Shown piece after piece: positions 9,100 to 45,980 of a stretch of 64,000 bases of DNA (position 1 is the stretch's first letter; each line of letters begins with the position of its first letter). Both the position numbers and the translations under genes were made by a program. The stretch comes from Domibacillus indicus (lineage in GTDB: Bacteria; Bacillota; Bacilli; Bacillales; Domibacillaceae). The stretch spans positions 124,001 through 188,000 of the forward strand of contig NZ_JAMBOO010000004.1 of assembly GCF_023715895.1 (NCBI RefSeq). The letters are read 5' to 3'. The notes beneath the pieces were generated by a model, which was not told the DNA's origin, did not search any database, and worked only from the letters and a program-made list of their open reading frames with translations.

Positions 9100-10502
9100 A
9101 TCGGAAAGTAGAAAATGTGAAAATTGCCTACATTGGCGGCGGATCTCAAGGCTGGGCCAAACGGCTGATGAATGACCTTGCGCTTGAGCCAAGAATCAGC
9201 GGGACCGTTTCGCTTTATGATATTTATCCGGAAGCCGCCCGGCAAAATGCTGTCATTGGCAACAGTGTGTCTGCGCGCGAGGAAGCAGTCGGCAAGTGGG
9301 TATACGAAGCAACCGGAGATATAAAGGAAGCCTTGACGAATGCTGATTTTGTGATTATTTCTATCCTGCCGGGATCGTTTGATGAAATGGCATCTGACGT
9401 CCATACGCCGGAGAAATACGGGATTTATCAATCTGTTGGCGATACAGTCGGACCGGGCGGTATCATTCGCAGTCTGCGGACTATTCCAATTTACAAAGAA
9501 ATTGCGGAGAACATTAAAGCGTACGCACCCGATGCATGGGTCATTAATTACACAAACCCGATGACTCTTTGCACGCGCACGCTGTATGAAGTATTTCCAG
9601 AAGTAAAAGCGTTCGGCTGCTGCCATGAAGTGTTTGAAGTGCAGCACCTTCTGGCCGACATGGTGGAAGAAATGACCGGCACAGCAGTCGAGCAGCGCCA
9701 GGATATACAGGTTAATGTAATCGGCATTAACCATTTTACGTGGATTGACCGGGCAAGCTATCAACAGATGGACTTGCTGCCGATGTACAAGGAGTTTGTC
9801 GAGAAGCATGCCGAATCAGGCTACGAGAAAAATCTGGGAGACTGGGAGAAAAGCGTTTTTTCATCTGCGAACCGGGTGAAGTTTGACCTGTTTCGCCGGT
9901 ACGGCCTCATCGCCGCAGCAGGCGACCGCCATTTAGCAGAATTTATGCCGCCGGTTTATCTGGAGAGCCCGGAAACAGTGGCAAAATGGAAGTTTCACTT
10001 AACACCGGTTGATTTCCGGAAAAAAGACCATAAAAGCAAAATAGAGCAAAATCAAAAAGTGGCCGCCGGCGAAGCAGATTTTGAACTCGCACCGTCTGGA
10101 GAAGAAGGAGTAGCCATCATTGCCGCCCTTCTTGGACTCGAGGAGCTTGTGACAAACGTGAATATGCCGAACGGGGGCCAGATTGCTAACCTGCCGTACG
10201 GAGCTGTTGTAGAAACAAATGCCGTTTTACGCCGTGACAGCGTGCAGCCGGTTTTAGCCGGAAGCCTGCCGGCTGATTTGCTTGGCATTATTGGACGGCA
10301 TGCCGCCAATCAAGAAGCGGTACTGCAGGCAGCGTTAACTGAAAACAGAGAGCTTGCGCTTAACGCGTTTATCAACGACCCGCTTGTAGCGCCGCTCGGT
10401 TTTGAGCAGGCCGAAGCACTATTTGATGAAATGATTCAAAACACAAAATCACATGTTGGAGGAGGTTTTGTTCGTGATCGCAACGCGTATGCATCGTCAT
10501 GA
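9096..10502 (+). CDS. lplD: GH4 alpha-galacturonidase, LplD type
   Basis: 468 residues. The N-terminal Rossmann motif IGGGSQGWAK binds the NAD+ that GH4 enzymes use in redox-assisted hydrolysis. INYTNPM is the GH4 Asn/substrate motif. The diagnostic tetrapeptide is CHEV (in FGCCHEVFEV, about residue 177), described for alpha-galacturonidases such as B. subtilis LplD; glucosidases and galactosidases of the family carry other variants. The metal-ligand His lies in INHFTW. It should free galacturonic acid, which feeds the uxa genes 2 kb away. Coupled by 4 bp to the GH42 gene. Confidence 0.85.
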   Translation: MNRKVENVKIAYIGGGSQGWAKRLMNDLALEPRISGTVSLYDIYPEAARQNAVIGNSVSAREEAVGKWVYEATGDIKEALTNADFVIISILPGSFDEMASDVHTPEKYGIYQSVGDTVGPGGIIRSLRTIPIYKEIAENIKAYAPDAWVINYTNPMTLCTRTLYEVFPEVKAFGCCHEVFEVQHLLADMVEEMTGTAVEQRQDIQVNVIGINHFTWIDRASYQQMDLLPMYKEFVEKHAESGYEKNLGDWEKSVFSSANRVKFDLFRRYGLIAAAGDRHLAEFMPPVYLESPETVAKWKFHLTPVDFRKKDHKSKIEQNQKVAAGEADFELAPSGEEGVAIIAALLGLEELVTNVNMPNGGQIANLPYGAVVETNAVLRRDSVQPVLAGSLPADLLGIIGRHAANQEAVLQAALTENRELALNAFINDPLVAPLGFEQAEALFDEMIQNTKSHVGGGFVRDRNAYASS

Positions 10503-11574
10503 TATTGAACAAACCATTGATTTATTAATTGATAATCTTGTGAACTTAAGCGACCCGGACGGAACGTATGCAATTCCGCTTGCGGACGGACGGAAGATCG
10601 ACAATAAAAGCTTTAATTACTGGGAATGGACAGCGGGCGTCGGCTTGTACGGCATGATGAAATATTACAAGCTGACGAAAAAGCAGGCCGTTCTCGATAT
10701 TATTGTGAAATGGTTTGAAGACCAGTTTAAAGAGCAGCCCGTTGAGAAAAACGTTAATACGATGGTGCAGATGTTAACGATGGCTTATTTGTACGAAGAA
10801 ACAGGCAACCCAACGTATTTGCCATACCTGGAGTCATGGGGAGACTGGCTGTATCACGATATGCCGCGTACGAAAGACGGCGGCATCCAGCACGTTGTAT
10901 TCGGCTCAGAGAACCATCAGCAGCTTTGGGATGACACGCTGATGATGAGCGTGCTGCCGCTGGCGAAAATCGGGCTGCTTTTAGGCAAGCCGGAATATGT
11001 AGAAGAAGCCAAAAAACAATTCCTTGTACACATTAAGTATTTATTTGATAAAAAAACCGGCCTTTGGTTCCACGGCTGGACATTTGAGGGCAATCATAAC
11101 TTTGCGGAAGCATTGTGGGGACGCGGCAACTCCTGGATTACGATTGCGATTCCGGAATTTTTGGACCTGGTGGAACTGCCGGCAGACGACCCGGTCCGCC
11201 AGGTGCTGATCGACACGTTAGACCGCCAGCTTGAAGCGCTGCAGGCGTGCCAGAATGAAAATGGGCTTTGGCATACACTGCTTTTAGACCCGTCTTCTTA
11301 CGTGGAAGCCTCCTGTACGGCAGGCTTTGGCTTTGGTACATTAAAAGCTGTGCGCAAGCGCTACGTTGGAAAAAAGTACAAAGAAATGGGCTTGAAGGCA
11401 GTAGAAGCAGTAATCGAAAACATTGATGAAACAGGCGGACTAAAGCATGTATCCGCCGGGACGGCCATGGGAGAAACACTTGATTTTTACAAGCAGATTC
11501 CCGTCACAGCCATGCCGTATGGCCAATCGATGGCGATCTTATGCTTAGTTGAATATTTATATGTAAAATTGTAA
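10474..11574 (+). CDS. GH105 unsaturated galacturonyl hydrolase (YteR/YesR type)
   Basis: About 366 residues, (alpha/alpha)6-barrel GH105 enzyme. The motif QLWDDTLMMSVLPLAK holds the catalytic Asp that hydrates the C4=C5 double bond of unsaturated galacturonyl residues left by pectate or rhamnogalacturonan lyases. WGRGNSW and GFGFGTLKAV are further family blocks. Start GTG 10474 is chosen because GGAGGAGG at 10458-10465 is 8 bp upstream; an ATG at 10453 would precede that RBS. It overlaps lplD by 29 bp. The unsaturated uronate product needs KduI/KduD-type enzymes not present here. YteR or YesR orthology cannot be decided by eye. Confidence 0.83.
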   Translation: MIATRMHRHDIEQTIDLLIDNLVNLSDPDGTYAIPLADGRKIDNKSFNYWEWTAGVGLYGMMKYYKLTKKQAVLDIIVKWFEDQFKEQPVEKNVNTMVQMLTMAYLYEETGNPTYLPYLESWGDWLYHDMPRTKDGGIQHVVFGSENHQQLWDDTLMMSVLPLAKIGLLLGKPEYVEEAKKQFLVHIKYLFDKKTGLWFHGWTFEGNHNFAEALWGRGNSWITIAIPEFLDLVELPADDPVRQVLIDTLDRQLEALQACQNENGLWHTLLLDPSSYVEASCTAGFGFGTLKAVRKRYVGKKYKEMGLKAVEAVIENIDETGGLKHVSAGTAMGETLDFYKQIPVTAMPYGQSMAILCLVEYLYVKL

Positions 11575-11575
11575 A

Positions 11576-11601
11576 AGAGGCGCTCTACGCGCCTCTTTTT
11601 T
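11576..11601 (+). terminator. intrinsic terminator of the pectin operon
   Basis: AGAGGCGC, loop TCTAC, GCGCCTCT, then a T run. Ends the yesO-GH105 transcription unit just before the six-motif repeat. Confidence 0.88.
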
Positions 11602-11609
11602 ATTGGCTG

Positions 11610-11716
11610 GGCCGGAATTGTTAAATTTGGGCCGGATTCTAAAGCTGTTCGGCCGGATTTTATTCTATTCCGGCCCGGCAGCGGGAAAAACCGGCTCTAT
11701 TTTTCTTTTTCCGGCC
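11610..11716. repeat. six-motif GGCCGGA/TCCGGCC element, copy A
   Basis: GGCCGGA begins at 11610, 11630 and 11651; the inverse motif begins at 11669 (TCCGGCC), 11690 (ACCGGCT, degenerate) and 11710 (TCCGGCC). Start-to-start spacing is 20, 21, 18, 21, 20. The DNA between motifs is A/T-rich and not conserved with copy B at 39981-40087, which has exactly the same spacing. It fills the gap between two convergent genes. Function unknown. Confidence 0.8.
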
Positions 11717-11728
11717 CAGAAAAGAAGG

Positions 11729-12718
11729 TTACCGTCCGTTTACGCGGGCGCACGAATGCCGCTCGATTAAAACAGAGTTCATCGTGCGGGTGAGCTGCTC
11801 TGTTGACCCGGTTTCCAGCTGTTCAAAAAGAAGCGACGTCATTTGCTCGGCAACAGCTTGAACGGGAACACCGACACTGGTCAGCGGCACTTCAAGTGTA
11901 GCCATCTGAGGAATGTTGTCATAGCCGATAATCGACATATCTTTCGGAATCACAAGACTCGTTTCGCGTATAGCCCGCACAATGCCCGCGCTAATATCAT
12001 AGCTCGCACCAATCACAGCAGAAGGAAGAGAAGAAGATCGCAGCATTCTTTTGGTTGCCTGATAGCCATCATACCATTCAAGGCCGGCTGAATTAATAAA
12101 CGACTGTTTATGAACCGGCAGGTTAAAATGCTGCATCGCCCGTTCAAAGCCGCGGTACTTTTCCTGCTGGCGCAAATTAAGGGGAGAAAAATCGCCGATA
12201 AAAGAAATATCCCGGTGGCCGAGCTCTTTTAAATATTCGACTGCCTGAAACATCGCTTCTTGATAATGAAGGTCCACAAAGGAAAAAGAATTTTGCGGCC
12301 CGGCTCCGTACGAAACAACGGGAAACGGAGCGGTAACATCAGAAGAAAGATTGTTTTCTTCATCGAAAATCAGCACCCCATCTACATGAAACCGTTTGAA
12401 TAAATCAAGAGAAGCCTGGACAGGATTAACGGATAAAATCATCGAAAATCCCCTTCTTTGAATTTCGGTGTTCAGCTCGGTCACAAGAGTGGAATGAGCT
12501 GCACGATCCAGCGTCGGCCAAATCAAGCCAATGGTTTTGGACTGCTTGGTGACCAGCTGCTTTGCCGCAAAGTTAGGCTCATACCCCATTTCGCGTGCCA
12601 CCTGATGAATCTTTTCTTTTGTTTTCGGCTGAACAAGCGGGCTGTCATTTAATGCTTTTGAGACCGTTGAATAGCTGACACCAGCCGCTTTTGCAATATC
12701 TTTTATTGTAATGGCCAT
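11729..12718 (-). CDS. LacI-family regulator of galacturonate genes (ExuR/KdgR-like)
   Basis: 329 residues from ATG 12718, placed 5 bp after AGGTGA. The N-terminal HTH reads TIKDIAKAAGVSYSTVSKAL with the LacI hinge helix around residue 50, followed by a periplasmic-binding-protein-like effector domain. It is divergent from uxaC. The shared 130-bp region holds a 22-bp perfect palindrome over the uxaC promoter and a half-site inside its own promoter, so it most likely represses the uxa operon and itself. The effector is probably a uronate intermediate; that is inference. Which named Bacillus regulator is orthologous is uncertain. Confidence 0.83.
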   Translation of the reverse strand: MAITIKDIAKAAGVSYSTVSKALNDSPLVQPKTKEKIHQVAREMGYEPNFAAKQLVTKQSKTIGLIWPTLDRAAHSTLVTELNTEIQRRGFSMILSVNPVQASLDLFKRFHVDGVLIFDEENNLSSDVTAPFPVVSYGAGPQNSFSFVDLHYQEAMFQAVEYLKELGHRDISFIGDFSPLNLRQQEKYRGFERAMQHFNLPVHKQSFINSAGLEWYDGYQATKRMLRSSSLPSAVIGASYDISAGIVRAIRETSLVIPKDMSIIGYDNIPQMATLEVPLTSVGVPVQAVAEQMTSLLFEQLETGSTEQLTRTMNSVLIERHSCARVNGR

Positions 12719-12744
12719 ATCGATCACCTGAGTTGTTTTTCTTC

Positions 12745-31896: not shown

Positions 31897-33602
31897 GTTT
31901 TCAAATGTCACGCCGGCAGTATGCGGATATGTTCGGGCCCACAACGGGTGACTGTATCCGTCTGGCAGATACAGATCTCTTTATCGAAATTGAAAAAGAT
32001 TACACGGTGTATGGGGATGAAGTGAAATTCGGCGGGGGGAAAGTGATCCGTGACGGGATGGGCCAGCACCCCCTTGCCACACGCGCAGAAGCCGTTGACC
32101 TTGTGCTGACCAATGCCATTATCCTTGATTACACAGGTATTTATAAAGCGGATATTGGTGTAAAGGACGGAATGATTGCTGCCATCGGCAAAGCGGGCAA
32201 TCCCCTTTTGATGGACAAAGTAGACATTGTAATCGGCGCTTCTACCGAAGTGATTGCCGCAGAAGGAAAAATTGTCACAGCCGGCGGCATCGATGCGCAC
32301 ATTCATTTTATTTGCCCGCAGCAAATTGAAACAGCGCTTGCCTCCGGTGTCACAACGATGATTGGCGGTGGAACAGGACCGGCTACCGGAACAAATGCGA
32401 CCACATGCACCCCGGGTGAGTGGAATATCTTCCGTATGCTTGAAGCGGCCGAAGCGCTTCCGATGAATATCGGCTTTCTTGGCAAAGGAAATGCGTCTGG
32501 AATCGAGCCGCTTGAAGAACAAATTCAAGCAGGCGTGATTGGCTTAAAGCTGCATGAAGACTGGGGCACAACGGCTGCCACAATTGATACGGCGTTAAGG
32601 TCAGCAGACAAGTACGATATTCAGGTTGCTATTCATACCGATACATTAAATGAAGGCGGCTTTGTGGAAGATACGATTGCAGCGATCGATGGACGGGTGA
32701 TTCATACATACCATACAGAAGGAGCAGGAGGCGGGCATGCGCCGGACATTATCAAAGCGGCCGGCTATCCAAATGTTCTTCCTTCCTCCACAAACCCAAC
32801 CCGCCCTTACACAGTCAATACATTGGACGAGCATTTGGATATGCTGATGGTCTGCCACCACCTTGATCCATCGGTTCCGGAAGATATTGCGTTTGCCGAC
32901 TCGCGCATTCGGAAAGAAACGATTGCGGCAGAAGATATTTTGCATGATTTAGGTGTATTCAGTATGATCAGCTCTGATTCCCAGGCAATGGGGCGGATTG
33001 GCGAGGTGATTTTGCGCACATGGCAGACGGCCGACAAAATGAAAAAGCAGCGAGGGAAAATGAGTGAAGAAACAGGAGAAGGCGATAATTTCCGGGCGAA
33101 AAGATATGTCGCGAAATATACGATCAATCCTGCTTTAACACATGGCATTTCCGACTATGTTGGTTCTATTGAAACAGGCAAGCTTGCAGATCTTGTTTTA
33201 TGGGAGCCCGCTTTTTTTGGTGTAAAACCAGAGCTTGTCTTAAAAGGCGGCTTGATTGCCCACAGCGTCATGGGCGATCCAAACGCGTCCATCCCAACAC
33301 CGCAGCCGGCTTTGTACCGTCCGATGTTTGCAAGCTTTGGCAGGGCACTTTTCAAAACATCGATGACCTTTATGTCTAAAGCGGCGATCGAGCGCGGCGT
33401 TCCGCAAAAACTCGGTTTAGAGAAAATGATCCGTCCTGTCGGCGGAATCCGCACTTTGCAAAAAAGCGATATGAAATACAACGGTGAAACACCCAAGATC
33501 GAAGTGGACCCACAGACATATGAAGTAAAAGTAAACGGTGATCTGATAACGTGTGAACCGGCAGAAACTGTGCCAATGGCGCAGCGCTATTTCTTATTTT
33601 AA
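31893..33602 (+). CDS. ureC: urease subunit alpha (catalytic)
   Basis: 569 residues, full length. Nickel ligands lie in [11 protein letters not shown], the carbamylated Lys in GLKLHEDWG, further His residues in [12 protein letters not shown] and [15 protein letters not shown], and the active-site flap His in MVCHHLDPS. All catalytic residues that can be checked are present, so the enzyme should be active once nickel is loaded. It is followed by ureE after 12 bp. Confidence 0.97.
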
Positions 33603-38578: not shown

Positions 38579-38790
38579 AAGAAGCGGTTCTTCTCGTTCG
38601 AAGAGCAGGTCGTGGACAGGTTTACGATTAAAGCAGAAGGAGATAATGTAAAAGGGATAGTATCAGATCGGTAAGCTTTTAGCCAGAAATAAAATAAATG
38701 AAGAAAAGCTTCATCATCACTTGGTAAGCAGCCCAAAGAATGAGCTGCTTACCAGAAAAATGACGAGAATAGTTGAAGAGGTGAATGAAT
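38579..38790. other. intergenic region upstream of mtlD with hairpin and coding-like remnant
   Basis: Bases 38580-38675 read without stop as about 31 codons ending in TIKAEGDNVKGIVSDR and a TAA, which looks protein-like but has no start or RBS; it may be the tail of a decayed gene. ATGAAG/CTTCAT form an inverted repeat at 38698-38714. TGGTAAGCAGC (38722-38732) pairs perfectly with 38744-38754, but no T tail follows, so it is more likely a leader structure than a terminator. Confidence 0.35.
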
Positions 38791-39939
38791 ATGCAAGCTG
38801 TTCATTTTGGTGCAGGAAATATTGGCCGCGGCTTTATCGGGAGTCTTTTATACCAATCAGGATATGAATTGTGCTTTATAGATGTGAATCGTGAAGTGGT
38901 CGACCTGCTGAACGAAAAAAAGGAATACCGGGTTGTGATGGCGGATGAATCACGTGAGGAGCATATGGTGAGAAATGTCCGGGCCATTAACAGCGCTGAG
39001 GAAGCAGACCGTGTGATACAAGCTGTTGCTGAGGCAGACCTCATTACAGCCGCAGTTGGCCCGGCGATTTTGCCGCACATTTCGCGGCTTGTAGCAGAAG
39101 GCCTTCGGAAACGGACATCACCTGTTAATATAATTGCATGTGAAAACATGATCGGAGGGAGTACGCTCTTAAAAGAGAAGGTACTGGAGAAAATACCAGA
39201 AGAAGAGCGCGATGCTATTTTGTCACGAACTGGATTTCCGGACGCGGCCGTTGACCGGATTGTGCCTAACCAGTCAAATGAGGATAAATTGACGGTGGTC
39301 GTTGAACCATTTTACGAATGGGTAGTGGAAGAACTCAAGCTGATTGGCGATAAGCCCGCAGTGGAAGGCATCACCTGGGTGCCGGACTTAAAGCCGTACA
39401 TTGAACGGAAGCTGTTTACGGTTAATACCGGTCATGCAGCCGCAGCTTATTTTGGCTGGCAGACCGGTGCTCAAACAATTGATGGAGCACTCGGAATGAA
39501 GCACGTTGCCAAAGTGCTCCAGGCAGTCTTGAACGAAACCGGGCGTCTTTTAGTAACGAAATACAGATTTGATCAGTCTGAACATGACCACTATATCCAA
39601 AAAATCATTGGCCGGTTTGCTAATCCGCATATTCGCGACCATATTACCCGAGTGGGCCGTGCGCCGATTCGTAAGCTCGGGGGAAATGACCGTCTCCTCA
39701 GTCCGGCCAAGCAGTACGAGCAGCTGCTTGGTGAAACGCCGGTTTACTTAGCCAAAAGTATTGCAGCGGCGCTTTTATATGACTATGCACAGGATCCGGA
39801 AGCGGTAGAAGTGCAAGGGGAAATTGAACATAGGGGGATTGAATCCGCGCTGAAAAAGTTTACGCAGCTGGATGAGTCAGACCCGCTTTTTGCTGAAGTT
39901 ATGAAGCAATACGAATTGATGCGTGAAAAAGGAATTTAA
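38791..39939 (+). CDS. mtlD: mannitol-1-phosphate 5-dehydrogenase
   Basis: 382 residues from ATG 38791, 7 bp after GAGGTG; ATG 38785 sits too close to the RBS. The NAD motif is VHFGAGNIGRGFIG, IACENMIGGS is the family block, and the catalytic Lys lies in ERKLFTVNTGHAAAAY. It oxidises mannitol-1-phosphate to fructose-6-phosphate. No mtlA, mtlF or mtlR accompanies it, so the mannitol PTS must be elsewhere, or the gene serves another source of mannitol phosphate. Followed by a strong terminator and the second six-motif repeat. Confidence 0.93.
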   Translation: MQAVHFGAGNIGRGFIGSLLYQSGYELCFIDVNREVVDLLNEKKEYRVVMADESREEHMVRNVRAINSAEEADRVIQAVAEADLITAAVGPAILPHISRLVAEGLRKRTSPVNIIACENMIGGSTLLKEKVLEKIPEEERDAILSRTGFPDAAVDRIVPNQSNEDKLTVVVEPFYEWVVEELKLIGDKPAVEGITWVPDLKPYIERKLFTVNTGHAAAAYFGWQTGAQTIDGALGMKHVAKVLQAVLNETGRLLVTKYRFDQSEHDHYIQKIIGRFANPHIRDHITRVGRAPIRKLGGNDRLLSPAKQYEQLLGETPVYLAKSIAAALLYDYAQDPEAVEVQGEIEHRGIESALKKFTQLDESDPLFAEVMKQYELMREKGI

Positions 39940-39970
39940 AAAGAAGCTGGTTCCATCAGCTTCTTTTTTT
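39939..39970 (+). terminator. intrinsic terminator of mtlD
   Basis: AAAGAAGCTG, short loop, CAGCTTCTTT with a T run. Confidence 0.9.
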
Positions 39971-39980
39971 GTATGACCAG

Positions 39981-40087
39981 GGCCGGATTTTTGGCGGCTG
40001 GGCCGGAAAATGCTTGATTTGGGCCGGATATATGAGAAATCCGGCCACAACAAAGCAGATTCCGGCTTTTTTTGTCGTTTTCCGGCC
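39981..40087. repeat. six-motif GGCCGGA/TCCGGCC element, copy B
   Basis: GGCCGGA begins at 39981, 40001 and 40022; TCCGGCC-type motifs begin at 40040, 40061 (TCCGGCT) and 40081. Spacing 20, 21, 18, 21, 20 is identical to copy A at 11610-11716, although the DNA between motifs differs. It also lies directly after a terminator. In the DNA from here to 40229 only the SulP leader is seen. Confidence 0.8.
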
Positions 40088-44290: not shown

Positions 44291-45980
44291 ACTTCATCCC
44301 CATATCCAGCTCGTAAAGCCTCTTGTAGCGTTGTTCCTGCTGAAACAGCTCTTCGTGTGTGCCATTCATTTGAATCTGTCCGTCGTCTAAAAAGACAATC
44401 CGGTCCATTTTTTCCATACCCGCCAAGTGGTGGGTAATCCAGATAACGGTTTTTCCGTCCAGCACTTCAAATACGGTATCAATCAGCTGCCGTTCTGTTA
44501 CGGGATCAAGCCCAATGGTCGGTTCATCCAATATCACGATAGGAGTCTGCTGCAGCAAAATACGGGCCAGGGCAATCCGCTGACGCTCTCCGCCGGAAAA
44601 GCGGGCTCCGGTTTCCTGCATCACCGTTCCATATCCGTTTGGAAGAGATTCAATATAGTCATGCATATGCACCCGTTTGGCCGCTTCGATGACTTCTTCG
44701 TCTGTTGCCTGCGGGCTGCCGAGCCGAATATTATTCATGACCGTTGTGTTAAACAAGTATGGCTGCTGATTCAGCACGGCTATTTCCCGGGAAATGTATT
44801 CATCCGGTTCATTTCCGTTCACCAATACTATGCCGGCCTGCGGAGAAATGAATCCTTCTGCCAGCTGCATTATTGTTGATTTCCCTGCGCCGCTCGGACC
44901 GAGAATCGCCACTTTTTCCCCTGCCGGCACAGAGAATTGGAAATGCTTCAATACCGGTTCTTTTTCGCTGTAAGAAAAAGATACATCTTCAAAAGAAAGT
45001 GCCGGCACTCCTTTTACGAAAACCGGCTGAATAATGTTCGGTTCCGTTTTTCCTTCTTCGACTTTTTCAAGACGGCCGAGAGACTGGGCGTAGCCGGTCC
45101 ACTCCTGTGCTGCTGAAGAGAGGGTAAGGAAAGCTTCCGTAATCGGAAACAGCACTAGTGTAAAAGCAGCAATTAAGATCGGTGCCATTTCACCGTTAAC
45201 GCTTTGGCCGCCTGCCCATACCATCATGGTGACAACCGCCGCTCCAACAAGCAGCTGCAGACCGAAGTCGCGGCTGCGGGCAAAAGCCCGTTTAGCCGAC
45301 TCAAGCTCTGTCCATTTTTGTTCAGCACGCTCAAAGTCATCCACAAACGCTTGCCGGCGTCCGCTGAACAGCCAGTCGCCCATGCCCATTACTGCATCGG
45401 TTAACCGGCCATACTGCGCAGCACGCTGTTCTTTTTGCTTCGCTTGCTGTGCTTTCATAACCAGCAGCGAAACAAGCGGAACAAGCACAGTAAAAATGAA
45501 AAAGTACAGCGCCATCACAAGAGCAAATGGGGTAGAGAAAAAGCCAAGCGCCACAACAGCAGCGACATACAAAAGCAGGGCGCTCAGCCATGGAAAAATC
45601 AATTTAATATATACATCCTGCAGATGCTCAATGTCATCCGCAAACAAGCTAAGCGCGTCACCGGTTTTAAAACGTGCCATTTGCGGGCGGAGTGTTTCAT
45701 AAAGCCGGACGCGCATGCGGGAGACGATTTTTAAAATAAAGCTATGGCTTACCAGCCGCTCTACATAACGAGAAACGGACCGCATAATGCCGAAGGTGCG
45801 TACCAATACGATCGGTACGTAAATCATCAGCAGATTTTCGGGGCGTGAAGCGGCTTTTGAAATCAGATAGCCGGATACAAACAGCAGCGCACTGGCTGCA
45901 AAAATGGTCAGTCCGCCAAGCAGGACAACCAGGATGAGCAATCGTTTATGTTCTTTCAGATAAGGAATCAGCCACCCCAT
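44289..45980 (-). CDS. cydC: cysteine/glutathione ABC exporter subunit CydC
   Basis: 563 residues from ATG 45980 after GAGGTG. Six-helix exporter domain (SALLFVSGYLISKAASRPEN, RTFGIMRSVSRYVERLVSH typical of CydC) joined to an ATPase with Walker A LGPSGAGKSTIMQLAE, signature ARFSGGERQRIALARI and Walker B IVILDEPTIGLD. It pairs with CydD to export reductant needed to assemble cytochrome bd. In B. subtilis nomenclature this position is called cydD. It overlaps the upstream gene by 35 bp. Confidence 0.9.
   Translation of the reverse strand: MGWLIPYLKEHKRLLILVVLLGGLTIFAASALLFVSGYLISKAASRPENLLMIYVPIVLVRTFGIMRSVSRYVERLVSHSFILKIVSRMRVRLYETLRPQMARFKTGDALSLFADDIEHLQDVYIKLIFPWLSALLLYVAAVVALGFFSTPFALVMALYFFIFTVLVPLVSLLVMKAQQAKQKEQRAAQYGRLTDAVMGMGDWLFSGRRQAFVDDFERAEQKWTELESAKRAFARSRDFGLQLLVGAAVVTMMVWAGGQSVNGEMAPILIAAFTLVLFPITEAFLTLSSAAQEWTGYAQSLGRLEKVEEGKTEPNIIQPVFVKGVPALSFEDVSFSYSEKEPVLKHFQFSVPAGEKVAILGPSGAGKSTIMQLAEGFISPQAGIVLVNGNEPDEYISREIAVLNQQPYLFNTTVMNNIRLGSPQATDEEVIEAAKRVHMHDYIESLPNGYGTVMQETGARFSGGERQRIALARILLQQTPIVILDEPTIGLDPVTERQLIDTVFEVLDGKTVIWITHHLAGMEKMDRIVFLDDGQIQMNGTHEELFQQEQRYKRLYELDMGMK

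Follow-up and report, generated by a model that had tools for sequence, protein, structure and literature searches.

Mirror-symmetric six-site arrays in intergenic DNA of Domibacillus: constant geometry, changing motif and a putative role near the origin

Copies A and B, two six-motif elements found in the window (the whole stretch of DNA that was analysed, 64 kb of the 5.08 Mb, 180-contig genome of Domibacillus indicus, here G000), are two of a genuine family of intergenic Domibacillus arrays in which six sites stand in mirror symmetry. Members of the family keep their geometry and intergenic place, occupy loci common to several species at which the motif has been replaced, and in this lineage cluster on the origin side of the chromosome. 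The arrays may quite possibly, if short of probably, be cooperative sites for a putative DNA-binding protein that would organise the origin region, a reading drawn from the sequences. Against it stand the weaker clustering elsewhere, the coexistence of different motif words, the loss of copies from a second D. indicus genome (G061), the similarity of the two arms and the failure to find a known binder.

Copies A and B and the anatomy of the arrays

The forward GGCCGGA motifs start at 11610, 11630 and 11651 in copy A and at 39981, 40001 and 40022 in copy B, and the inverse motifs at 11669, 11690 and 11710 and at 40040, 40061 and 40081, respectively (table 1). The preliminary description of three GGCCGGA and three inverse motifs per copy is correct as to the layout, but only 10 of the 12 motifs are exact, the fifth reading ACCGGCT in A (two changes) and TCCGGCT in B (one change). 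Start-to-start distances are indeed the same in both copies, and the spacers of A and B are unlike, as had been stated. The window contains 20 exact motifs, ten of them within A and B, compared with a mean of 7.7 in shuffles, and a motif-free scan returned A and B as the sole arrays scoring at least 33 of 42; with the same type of scan, two of three Markov controls gave nothing at 32 or above and the third gave two at exactly 32.

Table 1. Copies A and B and their neighbouring features (positions in the window).
Feature	Position	Strand	Remarks
GH88 (glycosyl hydrolase family 88) gene	10453..11574	+	ends before copy A
Terminator-like hairpin with T-run	11573..11602	+	directly upstream of copy A, after the GH88 gene; read from sequence
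Copy A, dyad array of six motifs	11610..11716	.	20-21-18-21-20; 40/42 motif bases
LacI-type regulator gene	11729..12727	-	convergent with the GH88 gene; flanks copy A
Mannitol dehydrogenase family gene	38785..39939	+	ends before copy B
Symmetric terminator-like hairpin	39938..39968	.	just upstream of copy B; terminator scan listed the - strand
Copy B, dyad array of six motifs	39981..40087	.	20-21-18-21-20; 41/42 motif bases

The genes flanking A and B are functionally unrelated, being metabolic or, in one case, a LacI-type regulator. Terminator scans listed neither array, though the arrays fold; at copy A the consensus scan also missed the adjacent upstream hairpin, while that upstream of copy B reads as a hairpin followed by a T-run on the + strand too. 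At the gathering score Rfam gave no match to the arrays. Its single match in the window (5_ureB_sRNA, 32048-32334, - strand, 126 bits) lies elsewhere, on the strand opposite the 5' part of the gene for urease alpha, and may be conserved coding sequence instead of an RNA. Of the earlier view that the element is neither coding nor a terminator, the first part stands.

Across loci, arrays were scored in a frame set beforehand, with a centre of 17 or 18 followed by 21 and 20 on each side. In this imposed frame (20-21-17/18-21-20) a score of 36 or more of the 42 motif bases is attained by 36 of the 60 distinct places, with the distances in the matched arm being partly imposed because the loci were fetched with the half-array pattern. 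The remaining places are degenerate, shortened or built with another word; other words score low because scoring used GGCCGGA or GACCGGA. The central distance is 17 in 42 of the 48 distinct arrays fitting the 17-or-18 frame and 18 in six, including A and B, and arms may exceed three motifs, some running to five or six. The two bases right after the motif are A/T in 95/96 and 96/96 spacers, with the rest of the spacer varying. The dyad first described for A and B is confirmed, but a centre of 17 is commoner than 18 and three motifs are not the upper limit of an arm; the motif, with its following A/T, A/T, gives way to other words in other species and loci.

It may be asked whether the arrays act as folded strands, that is, as RNA or single-stranded DNA whose three nested stems would terminate transcripts or insulate them, or as a DNA cruciform. 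Distances are symmetric on both arms, and the computed RNA folds are strong (z −6.6 and −6.9), as those of any such palindrome would be. Furthermore, the 14-base spacers of the two arms are alike (0.40 versus 0.32 for cross-array controls, 0/1000 shuffles, 42 distinct arrays), with similarity peaking at the first base on the outer side of the inner motif (0.69 versus 0.30, z 5.6). The likeness of the arms at this point speaks for pairing or an inverted duplication, and it may reflect a hairpin at the centre, a half-site longer than the motif or an origin by inverted duplication. However, mirror identity is absent overall from the 13-base spacers (the observed value is reached in 448 of 1000 shuffles), and changes on both sides were found in 11 mirror pairs, with 7.1 expected under independence and 7 to 15 in five non-mirror pairings (48 distinct arrays), so that covariation specific to the mirror pairs is lacking. 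Unequal arms retain motifs that have no partner, the tandem arrays of other genera have no partner strand at all, and both A and B come after terminator-like hairpins. By taking these points together, folding into nested stems is regarded as improbable, and of the two possibilities initially proposed, binding array or nested three-stem structure, the binding array is the best reading.

Copies in the genome, controls and place on the chromosome

The half-pattern GGCCGGA-N13-GGCCGGA-N14-GGCCGGA was searched along with the same pattern reversed as the control. In G000 it gave six exact matches and, with up to three mismatches, 22 matches (overlapping registers counted), the reversed control giving 0 in both searches; these values and the Markov controls led us to reject a chance origin in this genome. 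Ten array places, some degenerate, lie on contigs C107 and C126, and degenerate ones are also found on C93 and C180; a match on C91 sits in a coding frame. G000 carries ten to twelve array places, which answers the initial question of further copies, and the spacing, thought from the outset to be strict, is so both in G000 and in the relatives.

A same-species genome assembled in two contigs (G061; C1 and C2) allowed the arrays to be placed. In 800 kb around its origin 32 of 35 neighbouring exact-motif pairs (up to 60 bp apart) were found at array distances with no distance imposed, 24 of them at 17, 18, 20 or 21 and eight at distances that skip at least one site; the remaining three are at 3 (two pairs) and 46. 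A motif-free scan of the same 800 kb (central distances 13 to 30, at least three G/C in the word) yielded nine dyad hits, all of the GGCCGGA type and eight of nine in frame, with none in the Markov control; two tandem-frame hits both fell on arrays already among the dyad hits. In these scans, with one Markov control for each, no control hit was observed at 35. A stricter scan of the origin region also gave one A-rich hit, which was set aside.

The origin side is marked in G061 by dnaA (83.7-85.0 kb of the 3.39 Mb contig C2) and by the GC skew, which is negative at 60-80 kb, has become positive by 100-120 kb and reverts between 1.72 and 1.87 Mb. By taking C2 as circular, the whole-genome search places arrays at +108, +121, +177, +186, +325, +351, +393, +396 and −212 kb of dnaA, and a tenth, degenerate one near +1.03 Mb; for that at +396 kb the distances 21-21-16-21-21 fit better than the common frame. 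Thus, 9/10 places lie between −212 and +396 kb, a spread of approximately 608 kb (P ~2e-5 for 9/10 within 400 kb, a limit chosen after the data were seen), which settles the location relative to the origin that had initially been in question. A further degenerate array at −172.6 kb came from a region-restricted scan only and is outside the 9/10 count, and a place at 2978.6 kb was dropped from it as lying inside a coding frame, which we take to encode an alanine racemase. A single hit, with the word TTCCATC, was returned by the motif-free scan of 320 kb sampled away from the origin. The whole-genome search gave no array match on C1, the second large contig (approx. 1.7 Mb by difference), which is possibly a megaplasmid or second replicon.

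Among the Domibacillus genomes, half-array matches with at most one mismatch are present in 6/13 and with at most three in 10/12 besides G000, the controls being unclean in four of them. These are the array-rich relatives D. antri (G006; 53 matches versus 33 in the control), D. epiphyticus (G011; 23 versus 6), Domibacillus sp. PGB-M46 (G008; 15 versus 2) and D. robiginosus (G010; 16 versus 2), perhaps because the reversed word AGGCCGG has six letters in common with A-GGCCGG. Single control matches were seen in G006, G011 and G013. A degenerate pattern searched without mismatches was found in 8/24 genomes of the family, all of them Domibacillus, and in a class-wide draw the exact triple with 13-14 base gaps occurred in 4/398 genomes (G000, G013, G428 and G302). 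A plasmid collection searched for the pattern gave no match, and nothing relevant to motif or layout was found in the open-licence literature. The preliminary description had compared the element with those of Bacillus; the genus is in fact Domibacillus.

Outside the genus, tandem arrays with a 20-21 bp step were found in Peribacillus sp. SI8-4, G428 and G013; one of G013, of approximately 1 kb (C33:24149-25155), has some 50 GGCCGGA-type units at a 20-bp step. In Bacillus sp. PAMC26568, where dnaA lies at 10.8-12.1 kb and the skew switches between 2.42 and 2.6 Mb, seven places bear tandem arrays (407, 511, 988, 2957, 3328, 3831 and 3844 kb), all within 1 Mb of dnaA (P ~0.009, the limit again having been chosen after the data were seen), and a sampled stretch contained one more, with the word AGCGGTC, near 817 kb. 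A search of named genomes for the exact half-array gave 33 stretches: 11 in Domibacillus, two in PAMC26568 and Peribacillus, and 20 in other genomes, including several Streptomyces and Chloroflexi (8/20 with a chain of at least four motifs; set aside).

Loci common to Domibacillus species and turnover of the motif

Neighbouring frames of arrays in other genomes were mapped with tblastn onto the region from −285 to +515 kb of G061. There map 5/9 places of G002 (the other four without homologue in that region), 3/7 tested loci of D. epiphyticus (four without homologue), 2/6 tested loci, out of many, of D. antri (plus one weak; three none), and the single locus of G005 and of G001; none of the three loci of G003 maps clearly (two none, one weak hit). 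The C180 place of G000 corresponds to −172 kb, and the loci near −210, +108, +325 and +393 kb carry arrays in other Domibacillus as well. Clustering at the origin is weaker in other species; in Domibacillus sp. PGB-M46 arrays are present on the contig with dnaA.

At common loci the word may differ. At its counterparts of the +108 and +393 kb loci, as well as near −210 kb, G002 has GACCGGA in place of the GGCCGGA of G061. The clearest series was obtained at gnd, which is present in 12 Domibacillus genomes with identity of at least 87 per cent and is followed by a six-motif array in eight: the word is GGCCGGA in G000, D. antri and D. epiphyticus, GGGCGGW in G001 and G003, CGCCGGW in G005, GCYGRTA in G002 and GGCGCAA, with steps of 21-21 and a longer centre, in D. 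robiginosus. Reduced arrays or remnants are found at this locus in G008 and G061, and G004 and G009 have no array there and no half-array at three mismatches, which counts against the binding reading. A second array approximately 1.1 kb beyond the gnd array bears the same changed word in G001, G002, G003 and D. robiginosus, and G002 combines two classes of word (GACCGGA and GCYGRTA), as does D. robiginosus (GGCCGGA and GGCGCAA). From these same-word pairs and mixed words it follows that the word depends on species and locus, not on species alone; for classes to coexist, either a second binder or a mechanism independent of any fixed word would be needed.

Several word classes would also be expected of an extragenic repeat of the REP/BIME type, namely a GC-rich palindrome spread by a transposase or by copying, tolerated at gene 3' ends and perhaps relieving supercoils between convergent genes. 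REPs are described as intergenic, at 3' ends and in unidirectional or convergent gaps, and as forming several sequence classes (PMC3733652). The ten origin-region arrays of G061 (that at −172.6 kb included) share the preference, six lying in convergent, four in codirectional and none in divergent gaps, against 41, 138 and 86, respectively, of the 265 gaps of at least 110 bp used as background, a count based on crude ORF calls in which the array gaps are part of the background and some arrays overlap ORF ends by a few bases. In D. antri, moreover, a terminator-like hairpin (GTCTCA...TGAGAC) lies directly upstream of arrays with similar spacers (e.g. L129, L134, L137 and L232) in roughly 20/27 distinct array loci as counted by eye, and some loci have a common downstream end of the CACTTATGGGACAG type; a composite repeat, perhaps a miniature transposon, has therefore spread in that species. 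Nevertheless, A and B with 10 bp flanks contain no GTAG or CGTC, and, unlike REPs, the arrays have a fixed two-turn spacing, few copies in this genome and loci common to species, with clustering on the origin side in this lineage. Two G000 copies missing from G061 align as deletions with remnants and not as empty target sites, which rules out insertion of a mobile element at these places and means that single copies are dispensable; and the same changed word has been adopted in place by both gnd-locus arrays of four genomes. A repeat of this kind is considered unlikely.

The putative binding protein and its relation to known systems

If the arrays are binding sites, each would offer dyad-symmetric sites for one sequence-specific protein, the protomers of which would bind along a single DNA face at intervals of approximately two helical turns and make contact over the dyad, with the AT-rich spacers probably bent or wrapped. 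Such arrays would work as DNA and not as operators of the flanking genes, marking the chromosome on its origin side so that this region can be organised, anchored or segregated, and a drift in the specificity of the binder would replace the motifs while geometry and place are kept.

Known proteins were considered as binders. Noc and ParB were excluded by the occurrence of their usual sites as separate sequences: a canonical parS lies at 116.8 kb of G061, and the window contains at 44782-44795 one exact ATTTCCCGGGAAAT, the Noc-type site. The arrays resemble parS and Noc sites in being chromosomal binding sites, with parS also near the origin, but are distinct from both. The gene beside the arrays at 346 kb, which we assume to be NERD-like, was rejected since its 5' part is lost in G061 and the second array remains.

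The arrays could themselves be the sporulation centromere of RacA, i.e. ram sites. In B. subtilis these form 25 regions over 612 kb, each site a 14-bp GC-rich inverted repeat. The origin-side spread of the arrays in G061 (on the assumption that C2 is circular) is alike, and the ram sites of B. subtilis lie densely around the origin (PMC6593407). Yet a single 14-bp inverted repeat is unlike the layout of the arrays, other species show less clustering at the origin, and a comparison of the domain of PDB 5i41 with 18 genomes, 13 of them Domibacillus (one 77 per cent complete), revealed no clear ortholog of RacA. The DNA-binding domain gave only weak hits in 12/13 Domibacillus (E 1.7e-4 to 5e-3) and none in D. 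antri; nearly all hits are MerR-type frames of 283-312 residues, besides frames of 197 residues in G003 and 98 in G004. RacA was consequently rejected as the binder, and the ram reading is regarded as scarcely credible. Two frames of G061 with MerR-like regions, paralogous to each other, are 375 and 355 residues long (C2:1784776 and C1:483390).

Together with ram, the RefZ-binding RBMs of B. subtilis have in common with the arrays the presence of multiple origin-side sites, and RBM positions are conserved (PMC6657595); RBMs are single near-palindromes, in contrast to six or more short motifs with a changing word. The ParR/parC plasmid centromeres come close in another respect: they consist of direct repeats, of 20 bp in pSK41, the word and spacing of which vary by family and set specificity, the DNA being wrapped into a segrosome (PMC9426499). 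The Domibacillus arrays differ in being chromosomal, dispersed over approximately ten loci and inverted about a dyad, with A and B having metabolic or LacI-type neighbours.

It is conceivable, though on the doubtful side, that the arrays are a centromere-like or origin-domain system that Domibacillus uses in RacA's stead, with position and two-turn geometry under selection and the word turning over between species and even between loci. If so, the turnover of the word would resemble that in centromeres whose DNA and adaptor protein co-evolve rapidly, and the system would count the tandem arrays of Peribacillus and other Bacillaceae among its relatives.

In the usual case the binding word is kept and its places move, whereas here place and spacing are kept and the word changes, at loci common to several species. 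Scans with a fixed word miss such elements, and the gnd arrays with other words were found only through the comparison of loci across species combined with a spacing scan. Conserved places with a changing word would let word and binder be paired by comparison, and may offer a route to the putative chromosome-organising protein in relatives of Bacillus in which no clear RacA was found.
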